Shown here: positions 1,987 to 19,214 of the stretch, one piece after another | Layout of the letters: each line of letters starts with the position of its first letter | How positions within the stretch are numbered: position 1 is the stretch's first letter | IMG/VR virus record: IMGVR_UViG_3300025687_000397 | Coordinates: 1 to 21,325 of that record | Source: a virus | Length of the DNA: 21,325 bases | Reading direction: 5' to 3' (one strand) | The notes under the pieces: model-generated | Seen by the model: the letters and a program-made list of their open reading frames with translations, nothing else | Database searches by the model: none | What the model was told of the DNA's origin: nothing | Position numbers and translations under genes: made by a program

Positions 1987-4410
1987 TTACCAGCTTCCTC
2001 CAGCTCCAGGTACGGTTGTTCTATACCTATCGGTATCATAATTATACCTGATATATCCTGGACGGATACTTCTCATTTCCTGTATGTATTCATCAGGAGT
2101 TTTATTAGCTTGTCTTTTACCTGCTCCATATTTAGACGGAAACACATCTGATAAAGGTTTTTTATCTCTTACATGATATCCAAGATATTCTCTTGTACCC
2201 TGTCTTCCTAAAAGATTTACCATACCTGCTACATCCATAGGACCGTACTCTTTTTCTTGTATTTGAGGTCTGTACTGCTCGTATAAATCTTCTAAGTTTC
2301 TAGAGGTGCTTGGGATACCTGGTAATCCTTCTTCAAATCTTTTATTGTATATCTGATTCTGTAAAGTTGTATCTGCAGCAAATTGATCCCTACTTATACC
2401 TTTCATTTCAGGAAGATTTTGTACCTCGCTAAATAGCTGCCCGTAAAACCCTGTAGCAGTGCTTTCTGGATTTTTCATAAGAGTTCCATCTGCACTTTCT
2501 ACAAGCTTTACTTCATTTCTATGTTGCTGCATTAACTCTGCAGGTATTTGATATTTTCCTCCGGTTTGATATCTTGGGGTATACATACCTCCATTTCTAT
2601 ATTTATTTTTTGCGAATGCATCTCCATGCTTTCTAACCCTACCTATATAGGTCTCATGTCCTTCAGGAAATTCTATATCATAAGCTAAATCTCCAAGTGC
2701 TCCAAAGTATTTATACTTTGTAGAAGATACGTCTCTGGTTCTTCCTTCTTTTAAATCTCTTATAGACTCTACTTCTTCAGCCATTGATTTTGATGGATTT
2801 AAGTACCCTAGGTTTTTTAGCCTGCGAGTACCTTGATTATGTGCTAGTGTTGCTAATGCGCGTACGTCATCCTCTTCTAACTCTAACTGAGGATTTTTTT
2901 CTGCGTAACTTTTAAAAAGAGAATAGTTTTTTAAATACAGGTAAGTTGCAGCTTTAATTGAAGTTTCATCATCATTTATAGTAGATTCATTTAATCCTAA
3001 AAAAGCTTTCTCTCTAGGAGAAAATGTATCTAACTTCATTTTTGCAATGCCTTGAGATACATTGTTGATATCTCCAGTTCTTGACAGTCTTTTAATTTTA
3101 GCATTTCTTTCGACCTGTTCTGCAGAAGGCTTATACTTTCCTGCACCGGTTTCTAATTTTAAAATTCCATATACATCTTTTTCTATATCTTTTACAGGAA
3201 GATCCTTTATTTGAAGATCCTCTGCCATATTGTTTACATAGGTTCTTACTATTTTAGCAGGATCTGCACCTGTAAGATCTGTATCTTCTGTGTCTTTAGG
3301 AAGCTCGTATGCAGAAGTTAGTTTTTCTGCAGGTGTTCCTACCCATCCAATAGTTAGCCTATTGTACGGTACGTGTTTTAGATCTCCTTTTAAATTATGA
3401 GAAATAATAGGGATACCGTCCTTTATAGAAGTGACTACTCCTACGTGTGTGTTTTTTGTACCTCCTTTACCCCTATCTATAGCCACACTATGGTAATCAC
3501 TTCCTTTCCAAAATATGCCTACTACATCTCCTACATCAAAAAGATTTTTTGTAGCTACATTTTCTTTTTTAACCTTTTCAGTGTTTATTAAAAGGTTTGA
3601 AACAGTTTGAGCACTTTGTAATCTAGGGTCATCGTAGATGTTATACTTTATCTTTCCTCCCCTATCTTCAATGTCTGCTTTCATTTCCCAGGCATCTCCA
3701 AGCACTGTGTTTTGAAGTACATCTGATACATACTCAGCACATCCTTCTTGAGTGCATTTAGTTCTTGAAGACTGTGCTGCCAGTTTGTTTATCTTAGGAG
3801 ACATTGTATCTTCTAAGTATTTAGTATATGCTGCTAATGTCTCATCTCCAAACTTTCCATCTGCTCCATACTTAGGCAGATCGTACCCTTCTTTTAGCAG
3901 CATGTTTTGTAAAGCAAGTGTATCTTTTTTTGTTTTAGGAGAATACTGCTTATACAAAGAGTCTACTTTATCTTGCGCTTTTGTGACTACAGTATCTGTA
4001 TAGGTATCTATTAGACTTATCTGTTCAGGTTCATTTCTAGGAGTAACAGCTTTATCTATAACATTTTTAGTAATTCTTTCAGGAGTTTCTGAGAATAGAG
4101 GTTTTACATATGTAGACTCTGCTTGAGCTACTGCTGGAGGAACAGAAATATCTATAGAGTAGTTAGGTTTTTCTGGAGCTTTTGGCGCCATATTAGAATA
4201 TCTTGTAGCACTTCCTGCAGATCTTGGAGGTAGTGGAGGTGCTGTAAGAGGAGAAGTATCTGTGGGTTTAGATTTTTGAGGAGTATAAGGTCTTCCTGGA
4301 TTTATATACCCAGGGACTACATTAGGAGTTAAAGCTTCATTTGGAGGAGCTACAAACTCACTTATATCTTTAAGTGTAGATTTTTTAGGAGATATTCTAC
4401 CTTTTCTCAT
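1987..4410 (-). CDS. Large virion protein with cysteine-peptidase-like and lytic-transglycosylase-like segments
   Basis: An 807-residue protein. Residues 1-130 are Pro/Thr-rich and probably disordered. Residues 165-200 resemble a peptidoglycan-binding repeat (YGADGKFGDETLAAY near 181-195). Residues 215-360 look like an NlpC/P60 or CHAP type cysteine amidase or peptidase: a candidate Cys in EGCAEYV (C224), then a GDVVGIFWKG strand, THVGVV (H322) and IPIISHNL (H338). Residues 400-620 are helical, with a Glu in ILKLETGAG and LATLAHNQG, which would suit a lysozyme or transglycosylase-like fold, but this is weak. The C-terminal 170 residues are unrecognised. It lies between the portal-linked 151-aa gene (14-nt overlap) and the scaffold gene, so a virion-associated wall-penetrating enzyme or ejected internal protein is likely. 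No experiment or search supports the catalytic assignment. Confidence 0.55.
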   Translation of the reverse strand: MRKGRISPKKSTLKDISEFVAPPNEALTPNVVPGYINPGRPYTPQKSKPTDTSPLTAPPLPPRSAGSATRYSNMAPKAPEKPNYSIDISVPPAVAQAESTYVKPLFSETPERITKNVIDKAVTPRNEPEQISLIDTYTDTVVTKAQDKVDSLYKQYSPKTKKDTLALQNMLLKEGYDLPKYGADGKFGDETLAAYTKYLEDTMSPKINKLAAQSSRTKCTQEGCAEYVSDVLQNTVLGDAWEMKADIEDRGGKIKYNIYDDPRLQSAQTVSNLLINTEKVKKENVATKNLFDVGDVVGIFWKGSDYHSVAIDRGKGGTKNTHVGVVTSIKDGIPIISHNLKGDLKHVPYNRLTIGWVGTPAEKLTSAYELPKDTEDTDLTGADPAKIVRTYVNNMAEDLQIKDLPVKDIEKDVYGILKLETGAGKYKPSAEQVERNAKIKRLSRTGDINNVSQGIAKMKLDTFSPREKAFLGLNESTINDDETSIKAATYLYLKNYSLFKSYAEKNPQLELEEDDVRALATLAHNQGTRRLKNLGYLNPSKSMAEEVESIRDLKEGRTRDVSSTKYKYFGALGDLAYDIEFPEGHETYIGRVRKHGDAFAKNKYRNGGMYTPRYQTGGKYQIPAELMQQHRNEVKLVESADGTLMKNPESTATGFYGQLFSEVQNLPEMKGISRDQFAADTTLQNQIYNKRFEEGLPGIPSTSRNLEDLYEQYRPQIQEKEYGPMDVAGMVNLLGRQGTREYLGYHVRDKKPLSDVFPSKYGAGKRQANKTPDEYIQEMRSIRPGYIRYNYDTDRYRTTVPGAGGSW

Positions 4411-4852: not shown

Positions 4853-7050
4853 TTATTGTCAGAATCTTTTTTTCTAGCAATATCTTCTTTTGCTCTATTA
4901 GAACGTTCATTTTCTTTTACCTGCATCTCTTTGATGTCGTTAGCTCTGTTCTTAGCGCTATCATCAGTTACAGTTACCTCTCTATCTCTATTATAGATCT
5001 CAGCTATCTCTAGCTTATTATCTCTGTCAAGCTGCTTATTCATATTCTCATTCTGAACTTCAGCTTCTTTCATCTGAATCTCTGCTTGACGTAATTGTTG
5101 TTCAGCCTGACTTTGTGCTGCCTCAAGTTCTTGACGAGATGCTTCTGCCTGCTTGATCTTATCCTTCATCATAACGAAGTTTTCAGAATCAACTATATCT
5201 GCTACCGTACTTGGAGGTGTGCCATTCTGTAGCATACCCATACCGAACTCTCTCATAAGATTCAGTTTTTCAAGCTCTTTAGTAGCATCTGATACAAAGA
5301 TTCCTAGATCAGATTCGAGATAAGGGAGGGGATCAATTGCGAAGAACTCTGTAGTACCATCAGGCATTACATACTGTGCTTCTTTACCTGTTATCCATGC
5401 TTCCTTAGAGTAGTCAAGAAGTGCTTGCAGATCTCTTTGTTCTACACCGGCAAACTTCCTGTATAGGTCCTCAGTTGTATGAGCACTTTGTACAATTGCC
5501 TGCTGGCTTGTAGCCTTACCGTCATATTGGGACATCCCACCCATTCTTTGACGATTTACTCCAGATACTCTTTCCCACTCCATCTGTATAGAGTTCAATA
5601 ACTCTACATACATACCCATTGTCTTCATTGACAGGTCAAGTACGGATTGATGCTGCGGACTCAGTTTTACTCCTTCTTTGTTGTAGTCTATCCATGCAAT
5701 CCCAGTACCTTCTACATAGTACATGAACTTGTCCATATCCCATTTTTTAGGGATCATGTTTATATCAAGCTGTGCGATTATGTCTTTTGACCTGGCAATA
5801 GCCAATTCCAATCGATATTTGTATACGTTATAGTTTAACTGATAAGGTATACCTAGCATCACTAATGAGATGTTATTGGTATTTATATCAGAGTACTTAC
5901 GTCCGTTTATAGGGAGTTTATTCTTAGAAGGATTATTGATCGACATCCTTTGATTGTCAAAAGGACGCATGTTTATGTAAATATCCTCTCCTATGCATAT
6001 TCCTTGATAGACAAGGTTATGCCATTCCCACTCCATCTTTGCTCCAAGATCTTTTAGTTCTGGAGGTAGTCTATACCCGTCTTCTACATCAAACATTTCC
6101 ATGCTCCCTGTTTCAGGGTCATAATAAGACACGAATCCCGTTCTTTGCATAGACTGCCAGTACAGAATGCGTACTCTTACAAGTCTATCTCTAAGGTCAT
6201 CTTGCCTATCCATGTAAGTAGAGTCATAGATAAAGCTACCTGATCCTGCGCTTTGGAATACCTGATCTATTTGATCTGGTTTAAGATCTCTACCAAAGGC
6301 TTCAATTACAGATGATGGGTGCATGTATTTAGTTACCATTGCCCAATCCCCATCTTCTACGTAGTCTAGATCCGGATCAAGATCATAGTCTACATCTAAC
6401 GGATTTAGTATATCGTAGAATACCTCCCCGTTTCTTACTCCCCTTTCTGTATAGCATTCTCCCGATACAAGAAAATGAAACCATGCCTTTTGCAGTTTTT
6501 CATGAACCTTGCAATCTTGCATAATATAGTTCATGCCTTTCTGTCCTAGAATGGCTCTTGTATCTGTATAGCTCCTTTCAAACATGTTTGCCAGTTCTTC
6601 AGGGAGCTGTATATCTTGTGTGGGCACTCCTGTATCCATGCCCATCATGTTCATTTCATTTACGAACATCTGTTTCATGGAGTTAAGTACAAGTGTTTTT
6701 TTCTCTTCCTCCATACGGGAAACGGAGTCCGAATTTTGTACGGTCACTGAGTAGTTCAATGGACGTTTAGCTTTTTCCCCCAGAAGTAGGTCTACGATAG
6801 GTTTGATAAGGGGATAGTTGCGCATTTTTGAAGGGAAGTTCTTACGGGCTTTGCCATAAGGCTGCACAACATAGCGATAGTCGTCATCATGGATCACCCC
6901 ATTGTAGTAATCATACAATTTCCGGAGCTCCTCTTTCCTGTTAGTTCTTCCAAAGTCAGCTAGAGAAAAATAGGCCTCCATCGTATTGATGGCCCATTCT
7001 CTGGTTTTTCTTGACTGTGGTATACGTTGGTTTGGGATTTCGCTGTACAT
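4849..7050 (-). CDS. Portal protein
   Basis: A 733-residue protein that I recognise as a portal of the crAss-like type. It would form the dodecameric ring at the special vertex through which DNA enters and leaves the head. The N-terminal region has RKLYDYYNGVI, PYGKARKNFPSKMRNYP and LIKPIVDLLLGEKAKRP, a block typical of these portals. The body contains long helices and Trp-rich segments. The last 120 residues form a charged Gln/Glu/Arg/Lys coiled coil (EAAQSQAEQQLRQAEIQMKE), as seen in the tail of many portals. The gene lies directly downstream of TerL. A 74-nt gap precedes it, holding a TAnnTTTG box whose last base is 5 nt from the ATG. Confidence 0.85.
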   Translation of the reverse strand: MYSEIPNQRIPQSRKTREWAINTMEAYFSLADFGRTNRKEELRKLYDYYNGVIHDDDYRYVVQPYGKARKNFPSKMRNYPLIKPIVDLLLGEKAKRPLNYSVTVQNSDSVSRMEEEKKTLVLNSMKQMFVNEMNMMGMDTGVPTQDIQLPEELANMFERSYTDTRAILGQKGMNYIMQDCKVHEKLQKAWFHFLVSGECYTERGVRNGEVFYDILNPLDVDYDLDPDLDYVEDGDWAMVTKYMHPSSVIEAFGRDLKPDQIDQVFQSAGSGSFIYDSTYMDRQDDLRDRLVRVRILYWQSMQRTGFVSYYDPETGSMEMFDVEDGYRLPPELKDLGAKMEWEWHNLVYQGICIGEDIYINMRPFDNQRMSINNPSKNKLPINGRKYSDINTNNISLVMLGIPYQLNYNVYKYRLELAIARSKDIIAQLDINMIPKKWDMDKFMYYVEGTGIAWIDYNKEGVKLSPQHQSVLDLSMKTMGMYVELLNSIQMEWERVSGVNRQRMGGMSQYDGKATSQQAIVQSAHTTEDLYRKFAGVEQRDLQALLDYSKEAWITGKEAQYVMPDGTTEFFAIDPLPYLESDLGIFVSDATKELEKLNLMREFGMGMLQNGTPPSTVADIVDSENFVMMKDKIKQAEASRQELEAAQSQAEQQLRQAEIQMKEAEVQNENMNKQLDRDNKLEIAEIYNRDREVTVTDDSAKNRANDIKEMQVKENERSNRAKEDIARKKDSDNK

Positions 7051-15039: not shown

Positions 15040-15320
15040 AAAAAGTCCCTTGAGAGTTTTACGTCTCTTAACTATTTCAATCGGGATTTAGACCTGACCA
15101 GTGCTTCCTTTCGGATACCTAGGGTTGACCTTCTTGGTGTTACTTCACCTACACTTACCTATGTGTTGCCTTACTGGCAGTCAACCCAAATCGGGCCCTA
15201 TATTCCGTCTCTTCTGTATCCTATCGGAGAAAACTCCACCTCTATTTAAGGCTACAATCCGACTTCTGACCCAATACTGCTCTTTCGATCCTCTTGGGTG
15301 ATCACTTGCGTGGGATACGG
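15040..15320 (-). ncRNA. Branched structured leader RNA of the late transcript
   Basis: About 280 nt without a gene, starting just downstream of a Bacteroidota-type promoter. An 8-bp perfect stem GGGUUGAC/GUCAACCC (15187-15180 with 15129-15122) encloses three consecutive hairpins: 15179-15167 (UGCC/GGCA), 15166-15151 (ACAC/GUGU) and 15149-15136 (GGUG/CACC), giving a four-way junction. Upstream are ACCCAA/UUGGGU (15299-15294 with 15274-15269) with a possible GAAA loop inside, and GUAUCC/GGAUAC (15318-15313 with 15221-15216). Downstream is a UCC-GAAA-GGA hairpin near 15117-15108. The 3' end has AGAG/CUCU inside a weak UCCC/GGGA stem followed by five U. It does not match a family I know. It could act in cis on late gene expression or be released as a separate RNA. 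Confidence 0.65.
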
Positions 15321-16008: not shown

Positions 16009-16266
16009 ATGGACTATTATTCAATAGAGAATGTCATACTCGTAGCGCATTCTAAAGAACTTAATTACATAGCTACGTTAATACTTTCAACAGGTAAATT
16101 AACCAGTGGAGCAGCAGATGAAAACAATCTTGTACGAGAGTTAATTAAAAATTGCAATGGAACAGACCCTAAAACATTTCAGGAGTTTATTGCAAAGCCT
16201 GTAAACAGTATGGATGCTGAAGAAATAGTAGCTTATTACAAAACCCTTGAAAATACTAAGTCATGA
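16009..16266 (+). CDS. Small helical protein, unknown
   Basis: 85 residues, acidic and helical (GAADENNLVRELIKNCNG, MDAEEIVAYYKTLENTK), soluble. Its stop overlaps the ATG of the following 70-aa membrane protein as ATGA, so the two are translated together and may act as a pair. The 5' UTR is AT-rich with a hairpin about 45 nt upstream. No family is recognised; such cytoplasmic-plus-membrane pairs in early phage blocks include superinfection-exclusion and toxin-like systems, but this is speculation. Confidence 0.65.
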   Translation: MDYYSIENVILVAHSKELNYIATLILSTGKLTSGAADENNLVRELIKNCNGTDPKTFQEFIAKPVNSMDAEEIVAYYKTLENTKS

Positions 16267-16475
16267 GAAGAATAGGTGTATTTTTATTTATATCAGCAGT
16301 TCCTACATTACTTATAAGTGCTGCTTGGATAGTATCAATAGGTATGTTTAACTGGATGGAAGCAGTAAGGTCTGAAGTGGCTTTTATGTTTACCATTTTT
16401 AGTATTCTATTTGCATTTCTGATAACTTGTTCAATGAGCAAGTATGAAGTTTGTGAATTTTACAAAGGATTTTAA
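16263..16475 (+). CDS. Small membrane protein with two predicted helices
   Basis: 70 residues with two membrane segments, about residues 5-27 (GVFLFISAVPTLLISAAWIVSIG) and 41-57 (FMFTIFSILFAFLITCS), joined by a short loop, with a charged C-terminal tail. The start overlaps the previous stop by 4 nt. It is followed by an 11-bp hairpin and then by the large structured RNA. Its function is unknown; an inner-membrane location is the only safe statement. Confidence 0.65.
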   Translation: MRRIGVFLFISAVPTLLISAAWIVSIGMFNWMEAVRSEVAFMFTIFSILFAFLITCSMSKYEVCEFYKGF

Positions 16476-16496
16476 CTTGGTAAAGTTTTAGATAAA

Positions 16497-16524
16497 ATAG
16501 GGGAGGTTATTTGACCTTCTCTAT
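16497..16524 (+). terminator. 11-bp hairpin between the membrane-protein gene and the large RNA
   Basis: AUAGGGGAGGU (16497-16507) pairs completely with ACCUUCUCUAU (16514-16524) across a UAUUUG loop. Two G-U pairs make sense only in a plus-strand transcript. It is followed by UUC only, so termination would be weak. It probably marks the end of the upstream mRNA or the boundary of the large RNA. Confidence 0.5.
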
Positions 16525-16689
16525 TTCAAACCTATAAAAAATTCATCTGAGAACAGTAAACAGTGATATTCAGTTAAGATATCGTAGGGAGGCTTGATCT
16601 GACCTCATATCACAGCTCTGCCAAAGAGCGTTGTCTGTTGTTCTGTGTGGAGCAAACGTGGCACTAACAGGTAGTTAGGTCGAGAACGT

Positions 16690-16712
16690 ACCGTTCGATT
16701 CGGTTGTTGTGA
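16690..16712 (+). other. tRNA-like T-arm and acceptor half inside the giant RNA
   Basis: ACCG (16690-16693) and CGGU (16701-16704) close a 7-nt loop UUCGAUU that fits the tRNA T-loop consensus. The following GUUGUGA (16706-16712) can pair with UCACAGC at 16610-16616 like an acceptor stem. The enclosed length (about 100 nt) and missing anticodon arm argue against a working tRNA. Confidence 0.4.
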
Positions 16713-17690
16713 TGAAGCATTCAGAGTGGCATCTGGCAGGTGATAATTTATTGAGAGATAGACATGTTCGTGTACTTGAAACCATCGAAGAACATGTTGA
16801 TAGCCATGCCGTCCGCCAGGCATTAAGAGTAGTGGAAGACATGGCTTTTCTCTCATCTTATTGAAACCGTTCTGATTCATTACAGACAGATAAGAGATAC
16901 CGTGTAGGTGAGCTTTAATGCGCTTATCAACACTATCCAAGAAGTGTTTAGGTTTGAATGGATGTATTAAGTAAAGTTATTCCCCATGGAATCTGGGGAT
17001 TTATGGTGTGGTTTAATTCCACCTTGTAGTTTAAGGATAGAACGAGACTTTACAATTTAATATTCCTCAATTGGAGAGGACAGAATGGTTTCTTTTTATT
17101 AGTAAAGGTCAAACCTACGACCTTGTGATTAACTAGTAGTTCGCAATACCGTGCAAGAACGATAGATCGGTGTTAATCACTAAAAGAAGATAAAGGAAAT
17201 AATCAACGATGTATTAATGTTAGTCACAAGTGTTGCATTTAATATAGAATATGGGAGGAGGCACTTCCTATAACTTTATCCAGTGTACCCTTGAAATGCC
17301 ATTTGAGAGGGAAACCAACATACAGTTTGCGTTGAAAGGATATATTACGCACATTAACCATGAAGTTGGAACCTACACTGAGGAGTTGGCAGCAAAGAGA
17401 TAATTACCCAGGCGCAGGGCACAGCGTATCGATATCACTTATGTACAAAGTGGTTAGAGTGAGTTATTATCTCGTGACCATTTATAGTAGTTTACTATTA
17501 TAGATGGTGCTAAAACATGAGGGATTGTGGGTTAACTCTTGACACCTACAATTGCCTCCAGGCGCATGTAAAATATCGGGCATGTTGCTGGTAAAACAAC
17601 CGTGATGGGATAGACCCTCATCAACTAAAACAGTAAGAACCTGGAGTCAAGCTGGTTCTGAATCATAGTAGTACGTAATGCTATGAACGG

Positions 17691-17724
17691 ACACATATGG
17701 TAGGCTATTGCCTATGTGTTTTTT
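17691..17724 (+). terminator. Intrinsic terminator of the giant RNA
   Basis: ACACAUA (17691-17697) pairs with UAUGUGU (17713-17719), with an inner GGC/GCC (17703-17705, 17710-17712) and a UAUU loop, followed by six U (17719-17724). This is the clearest rho-independent terminator in the window, and it fixes the 3' end of the structured RNA 37 nt before the next gene. Confidence 0.8.
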
Positions 17725-17761
17725 GTATTGTAATTATTCACCAAAATCATATATTTAAAGC

Positions 17762-18073
17762 ATGAAAACAGTAGGAGAGTTCTTACAAATGTTGCCGGAG
17801 CCATATGCTTCCGCTGCAATCCTTGCTACTTCAATAGAAGAGGTAGTAGATAATCCGTGTAGTAGTCTTTCAGACGCTATAATCAGCTTCGATTGGAATG
17901 AATGGGCCATAGATGATGCTGATAAAACGTGGCCTGAGTTATACTCAATGGCATTAATTACGGAGACCGACACCGACACTATGTGGGATATACCACAAGA
18001 AAATATTATTGAGGCACAGTTAACTGCCTTAGAAGATATGGGCTTTAGAATAAGAGGCATATATCTTAATTGA
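17762..18073 (+). CDS. Acidic protein, unknown
   Basis: 103 residues, strongly acidic (EEVVDNPCSSLSDAIIS, DDADKTWPELYSMALITETDTDTMWD), with no membrane segment. Acidic early phage proteins are often DNA mimics or inhibitors of host enzymes, but nothing specific is recognised. It starts 37 nt after the giant RNA's terminator, so it needs its own promoter in the AT-rich gap or read-through. The TGA stop is followed in frame by 22 more sense codons (INPEHLDIFRKAIDLIGILRTP) before TAA, which look protein-like; see the findings. The 147 nt to the next gene also hold a 6-bp hairpin AGGUGU/ACACCU (18156-18171). Confidence 0.7.
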   Translation: MKTVGEFLQMLPEPYASAAILATSIEEVVDNPCSSLSDAIISFDWNEWAIDDADKTWPELYSMALITETDTDTMWDIPQENIIEAQLTALEDMGFRIRGIYLN

Positions 18074-18220
18074 ATTAACCCTGAACATCTGGACATCTTT
18101 AGAAAAGCCATTGATCTCATAGGCATTCTAAGAACACCCTAAACTGAAAGGTTATAGGTGTGGTGACACCTTAAGTCACTAAACAATTATTCATTTTTAT
18201 AATCATTTAAATTCATTATT

Positions 18221-18887: not shown

Positions 18888-19214
18888 ATGAGCTATAGAC
18901 CTTTACCAACTTACGTTACAATCAAAGAATCTCAGATAGAAGGTCTGGGAGTTTTTGCAACTGAAGAGATTTACGAAGACATATGCTTGGGTGCTACTCA
19001 TGTGTATGATATTCGATTTGAAAATAGTCTTATAAGAACACCTTTAGGTGGATTTATAAATCATAGTGATACTCCTAACTGTATTATTAGGCAGGAAGAA
19101 GAGGGATCATCTTATTTGGAAAAAGGTTTTCCGGTAAGAAGTTATCTATACTCTCTTAGAAACATACAGCCTGGAGAAGAACTTACTGTTTCATATACAA
19201 CATATAAAGTGTGA
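18888..19214 (+). CDS. SET-domain protein
   Basis: 108 residues covering a minimal SET fold, the lysine-methyltransferase domain that uses S-adenosylmethionine. The three hallmark blocks are visible: EGLGVFATEEI (residues 18-28, cofactor strand and loop), GGFINHSDTPNCII (54-67, the NHS knot with the cofactor-binding Asn-His), and RNIQPGEELTVSYT (91-104, ending in the catalytic-region Tyr). There is no pre-SET or post-SET cysteine cluster, although C65 follows the NHS motif. Substrate unknown; a host or phage protein lysine is the usual inference. It leads a tight string of small genes ending in the polymerase, with its TGA overlapping the next ATG by one base. Confidence 0.8.
   Translation: MSYRPLPTYVTIKESQIEGLGVFATEEIYEDICLGATHVYDIRFENSLIRTPLGGFINHSDTPNCIIRQEEEGSSYLEKGFPVRSYLYSLRNIQPGEELTVSYTTYKV

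Follow-up and report, generated by a model that had tools for sequence, protein, structure and literature searches.

The window analyzed here, the complete 21,325-nt virus record of IMG/VR, contains a gene-free stretch among its early genes whose conserved part, a core of ~200 nt at positions 17511-17727 on the plus strand, may be best explained as a trans-acting phage RNA produced within an early operon and given its own 3' end by a terminator; we place the probability of this explanation at roughly 0.5. The terminase encoded in the window is ~40% identical to terminases of crAss-like phages from the human gut, and closer relatives, at 65-95%, are found among other IMG/VR contigs. Late genes occupy the minus strand and early genes the plus strand, and the gene-free stretch is flanked by a 70-aa open reading frame (ORF; 16263-16475) and a 103-aa protein gene (17762-18073, plus strand). 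A sequence-only reading of this DNA had noted the lack of genes here, and the observation is borne out, with no credible gene between 16476 and 17761. Tested against protein-like signal, the ORFs inside the stretch match no PHROG family, three-base periodicity is not found over 16886-17710, and the sole borderline feature is a minus-strand run of 123 codons without a stop, whose length lies at the 95% edge of shuffles. The strong intrinsic terminator that the same reading had placed at the end of the stretch is likewise present: a hairpin and U-run at 17689-17727 (plus strand) are recognized in the sequence itself and in a terminator scan.

Exact motif scans of IMG/VR uncovered just two further carriers of the core, G001 and L103 (the latter located with a 16-nt core motif), and the core alignment consists of these two sequences and the window, the G001 contig ending inside the terminator hairpin. 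Identity to the window is 84.0% in G001 and 90.1% in L103, where the last ~90 nt of the core reach 97.7%. The L103 core is more conserved than the DNA of the gene after it (90% versus 64%; 64.4% for the gene before rounding), and a 55-nt run contains only two variable positions among the three phages. In all three, the core stays ahead of the same gene family, represented in the window by the 103-aa protein (84% identical in G001 and 50% in L103), while each phage has different genes 5' of the core. A noncoding RNA at 17511-17727 is thus well supported, judging from its conservation in three phages with differing flanking genes and from hairpins that are kept through sequence changes. The folding z-score of the core is about -2 to -2.9. 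Among 84,980 bacterial and archaeal genomes, a scan with a degenerate core motif found no occurrence.

The core alignment fits five hairpins followed by the terminator, comprising 51 pairs with 98.0% of cells paired, and includes one double-sided and several one-sided consistent changes. Hairpin 1 (17524-17552; this and the following hairpins on the plus strand), whose loop carries CUUGAC at 17538-17543, is always paired and shows one compensatory and two one-sided changes; hairpins 2 (CAUGU/GCAUG, 17565-17584) and 3 (GAUGGG/CUCAUC, 17604-17622) are each paired in all three sequences, again with two one-sided changes apiece. The stem of hairpin 4 (AGAAC/GUUCU, 17636-17659), which presents GUCAAG in its loop at 17646-17651, is invariant, and hairpin 5 (17663-17686), an 8-bp stem bearing the octaloop GUACGUAA, is nearly so, with an identical sequence in three relatives. 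The CUUGAC of hairpin 1 is the exact complement of the GUCAAG of hairpin 4 and both are invariant in the three phages; a 6-bp kissing interaction between the two hairpins is possible, their invariance leaving the match compatible with the alignment and without covariation support. A second tertiary contact is proposed between the terminator loop UGGUAGGCU (17698-17706) and the upstream strand UGCCUCCA (17553-17560), which are complementary in 87.5% of cells.

The octaloop hairpin GUACGUAA is shared, on a partly different stem, by structured RNAs beside tRNA genes in two phage contigs of 92 kb and 376 kb from one metagenome (L095 5915-6095 and L097 1640-1812, both plus strand). Both score at chance (E 5-7) with a covariance model of the 3' core, and DNA searches of INPHARED and PLSDB with the L097 RNA and the L103 core returned chance matches only. 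Because the 16-mer AGTAGTACGTAATGCT also recurs in coding DNA of several contigs, with the stem extended by chance in L099, a link between these RNAs and the window core is suggestive only.

To place the core in context, the locus between the start of the late genes and the p18221 gene was compared in other crAss-like contigs. The p18221 gene is present in every relative record reaching this locus, and several relatives carry noncoding RNAs here that share no sequence relationship with the window or among themselves. One such RNA of ~440 nt, termed type A, is represented by a set of six distinct sequences (L041, L073/L118, L114, L115, L116, and L117; alignment of 493 columns), located on the minus strand at L041 1501-1948, L118 565-1004, L114 1029-1479, L115 8719-9208, and L117 1869-2315, and on the plus strand at L116 7661-8108. 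The type-A consensus contains 117 pairs with 98.3% of cells paired and 37 double-sided changes, and none of 500 shuffles scored as high. Its 3' end matches twister-P1 (55.3 and 41.9 bits; E 9.5e-10 and 7e-6), below the gathering score of 67.2, and the twister P1 and P2 stems covary (helices 18 and 19). The closing helix stops just short of the expected twister cleavage site, and cleavage, as predicted from established twister chemistry, would release the closed type-A RNA. Type A as a whole is absent from Rfam. At the same locus, a hammerhead-like motif (E 0.085, consensus core sequences present) lies at the end of the noncoding stretch in L026 (5226-5277) and L015 (~4155-4210), and a small ~130-nt RNA, whose long closing stem is AATAACAACAGTAAG / CTTACTGTTGTTATT, occurs in L013 (6640-6784), L035 (~6001-6127), and L022 (~3894-3986), all on the minus strand; the closing stem appears compensated in L022. 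No large RNA is evident at the locus in L070.

Searches of the window with these elements were negative. A pattern scan for twister and hammerhead catalytic cores, positive in the type-A loci and in L015/L026, found none in the window; the type-A profile (nhmmer) did not match the window RNA, giving a chance-level E of 6 elsewhere in the window, and the type-A covariance model R2 yielded nothing better than E 2. Twister-like motifs were additionally seen, below the Rfam gathering score, in Roseburia phage Shimadzu (L119, ~2511), as two copies in an unverified faecal phage scaffold (L121, ~2505 and 2924), and in partial form in Bacteroides phage C3_41T2LP (L120, ~2501-2541).

We propose that the gene-free stretch of the window represents the noncoding-RNA slot of the early gene operon in an environmental crAss-like phage, with the ~200-nt core of five hairpins and terminator as its working part. 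The core would be transcribed together with the early genes, the terminator setting its 3' end, and is probably drawn together by the CUUGAC/GUCAAG kissing loop and by the contact between terminator loop and upstream strand. It would most likely act in trans, as a stable RNA that serves as scaffold, decoy, or regulator by binding a host or phage factor. The predicted self-cleavage in relatives would free their RNAs from the 3' messenger RNA, which fits free, trans-acting RNAs. More broadly, the locus resembles an exchange site at which phages replace one noncoding RNA by another, the 3' end of each being made independently. A further-reaching version, in which a dedicated early-operon slot accommodates unrelated structured RNAs of 130 to 1,200 nt that are exchanged as cassettes, each with its own 3'-end mechanism (twister, hammerhead, closing stem, or terminator) and all performing the same task, for example as host-factor decoys, the window RNA being the largest, is offered tentatively and falls short of an even chance.

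Three observations weigh against a trans-acting role for the core. Covariation within it is weak, with a single double-sided change among three sequences and a score reached by 174 of 500 shuffles; the window RNA is linked to the ribozyme-tailed RNAs of relatives by position and not by sequence; and a leader or attenuator would show the same layout, with a conserved element that ends in a terminator a short distance 5' of a gene. In this latter arrangement, the core would act in cis, similar to an attenuator or riboswitch, to control transcription into the gene at 17762 and the later early genes, with terminator formation as its output. Several features agree with such a role: the core precedes one gene family in all three phages, it ends in an intrinsic terminator with a loop complementary to an upstream core strand, and a second conserved noncoding element (18078-18186) lies 3' of the same gene. 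However, the loop pairing spares the lower terminator stem, so that no classical antiterminator would form, and three of the eight loop pairs are broken in G001. In L103, moreover, a 70-aa ORF intervenes between the core and the homologue of the 103-aa gene, and the RNAs at this locus in relatives end in predicted ribozymes rather than switches. We consider a cis-acting leader the chief alternative, although a rather unlikely one.

Between the upstream coding module and the core lie ~980 nt (16527-17510, plus strand) that are noncoding, of unproven structure, and found only in this phage. The G001 contig (83,756 nt) matches the window at 17511-17709 and at 16498-16526 with the intervening ~980 nt missing, and in L103 the core stands directly 3' of an upstream gene, again lacking the kilobase. 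L103 and G001 are at least 91% identical over most of the polymerase region, whereas each is 82-85% identical to the window; given this closer kinship of the two, a single event explains the 980-nt difference, which may be one loss or one gain, in either direction. The unique kilobase may also reflect an assembly error (chimera). No homologue of it was found in any collection searched, a DNA search with the whole region gave no match among INPHARED phages or PLSDB plasmids, and it has no homology to type A or to the other RNAs of relatives at the locus.

The sequence-only reading had counted more than a dozen stems of 5-14 bp in this region. Such stems exist, but their number equals that in dinucleotide shuffles: positions 16530-17509 contain 115 local stems of at least 6 bp (111.5 in shuffles) and 17 of at least 8 bp (16.3 in shuffles). 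Only the longest, a 14-bp hairpin at the junction of unique segment and core (17477-17508, plus strand), is unusual, its length being reached in 4% of shuffles. Folding z-scores in sliding 160-nt windows have means of -0.83 (plus strand) and -1.33 (minus strand), within the range of coding DNA. Over 490 nt, the z-scores range from -1.9 to -2.8, overlapping the gene values in this phage (+0.3 to -4.9) and lying close to those of the covariation-supported type-A RNAs as well; as genes and type-A RNAs score in a similar range, folding energy does not discriminate between them. The plus strand of the stretch folds better by ~20 kcal, and genes of this phage differ similarly between strands, so the G-U pairs once taken to imply a plus-strand RNA do not fix the strand.

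These results bear on the earlier proposal of a single ornate noncoding RNA of 1.2 kb, from which the conserved and structured 17511-17727 survives while inclusion of the kilobase, missing in two relatives and without a structure signal, is not supported. One large RNA spanning 16530-17724, forming a new class comparable to GOLLD or ROOL, would account for a noncoding segment in a tightly packed phage and for its G+C content of 0.392, compared with 0.361 in early genes. Set against this are the shuffle-like stem counts and gene-like folding energy, the two relatives that possess the core alone, and the lack of homologues of the kilobase, and we judge a single large RNA improbable. The kilobase by itself, under either account of the core, could instead be debris left by genes of an early region that changes rapidly. 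The genes 5' of the core differ among the three phages, so the region turns over, the kilobase lacks a structure signal, and it includes one 111-aa minus-strand ORF at the edge of chance; on the other hand, no protein family is matched, three-base periodicity is missing over most of its length, and ~1 kb of debris would be unusual in a tightly packed phage genome. Debris is a possibility that we would hold at about one in three. Together with a trans-acting core, we favor treating the ~980 nt as a lineage-specific 5' extension that would be co-transcribed with the core as one RNA and be dispensable for the role of the core in relatives.

The surroundings of the stretch contain further elements. 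A short hairpin, GGGGAGGTT-ATTT-GACCTTCTC, marks the 3' end of the upstream coding module (16500-16522, plus strand); in G001 it occurs 3' of two genes (L091 3168-3193 and 3530-3552), the second copy immediately 5' of the G001 core. The element of ~109 nt at 18078-18186 (plus strand), between the 103-aa and 194-aa genes, contains hairpins, is present in G001 too, and has no Rfam match; positions 18073-18211 share 92% identity with L103. A noncoding element of ~230 nt (15070-15275, minus strand) lies just ahead of the first late gene (15013) and is conserved in essentially all crAss-like relatives reaching this place (40 matches, e.g. L070 5141-5369). In 25 sequences, its 41 pairs are 94.1% formed with 21 double-sided changes, and none of 500 shuffles was as high, a level of comparative support that nothing else in the window reaches. 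The loci scanned against Rfam gave no match at gathering score, INPHARED gave none either, and the element looks like a structured leader of the late transcript. A small SET-domain protein gene is found at 18888-19214 (plus strand), and its homologue lies directly 3' of the terminase gene in many relatives, indicating that this gene has moved. The predicted fold of the p18221 product (predicted local distance difference test score 73) has no PDB match below E 0.001 and offers no hint about the RNA.

No structured RNA class for this locus is present in Rfam, and none was found described for crAss-like phages in the literature searched. The core offers a compact, testable RNA, and the ribozyme-tailed structured RNAs with strong covariation at the locus suggest that large regulatory or decoy RNAs operate early in infection. 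If this is true, phage self-cleaving ribozymes would gain a clear job in cutting noncoding RNA free from the operon transcript.

Among known systems, the sequence-only reading had considered a divergent GOLLD, ROOL, or OLE RNA, a suggestion that Rfam does not uphold: the window has no match at gathering score, and positions 16400-17800, searched at E up to 10, return only unrelated sub-threshold matches far below family gathering scores. The covariance models of OLE, HEARO, and group I and II introns are not matched, and an ARAGORN scan of the 21-kb window detects no tRNA. Similar to phage attenuators and riboswitch leaders, the window has a structured element with an intrinsic terminator ahead of a gene, but it matches no known class and has no conserved antiterminator that would dissolve the terminator stem. 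With type-A RNA it shares a noncoding, structured nature and a place on the early strand upstream of the p18221 homologue, although it lacks any sequence or covariance-model match and ends in a terminator where type A ends in a twister. GOLLD and ROOL RNAs are often located near tRNA islands, and homo-oligomeric assembly characterizes GOLLD, ROOL, and OLE. The window RNA is comparable to ROOL as a large structured phage RNA of unknown function, and differs in having neither an Rfam match nor a tRNA island. GOLLD is phage-borne and large, with a conserved 3' region and a divergent 5' region (PMC12286853), and has kissing loops. The window RNA differs from it in the missing Rfam match, the absence of nearby tRNAs, and a 5' part that is entirely lacking in two relatives; like GOLLD, it is phage-borne and large, with kissing loops that are only putative in its core, and it combines a 3' core common to three phages with a 5' kilobase present in one, a resemblance of layout rather than of membership.
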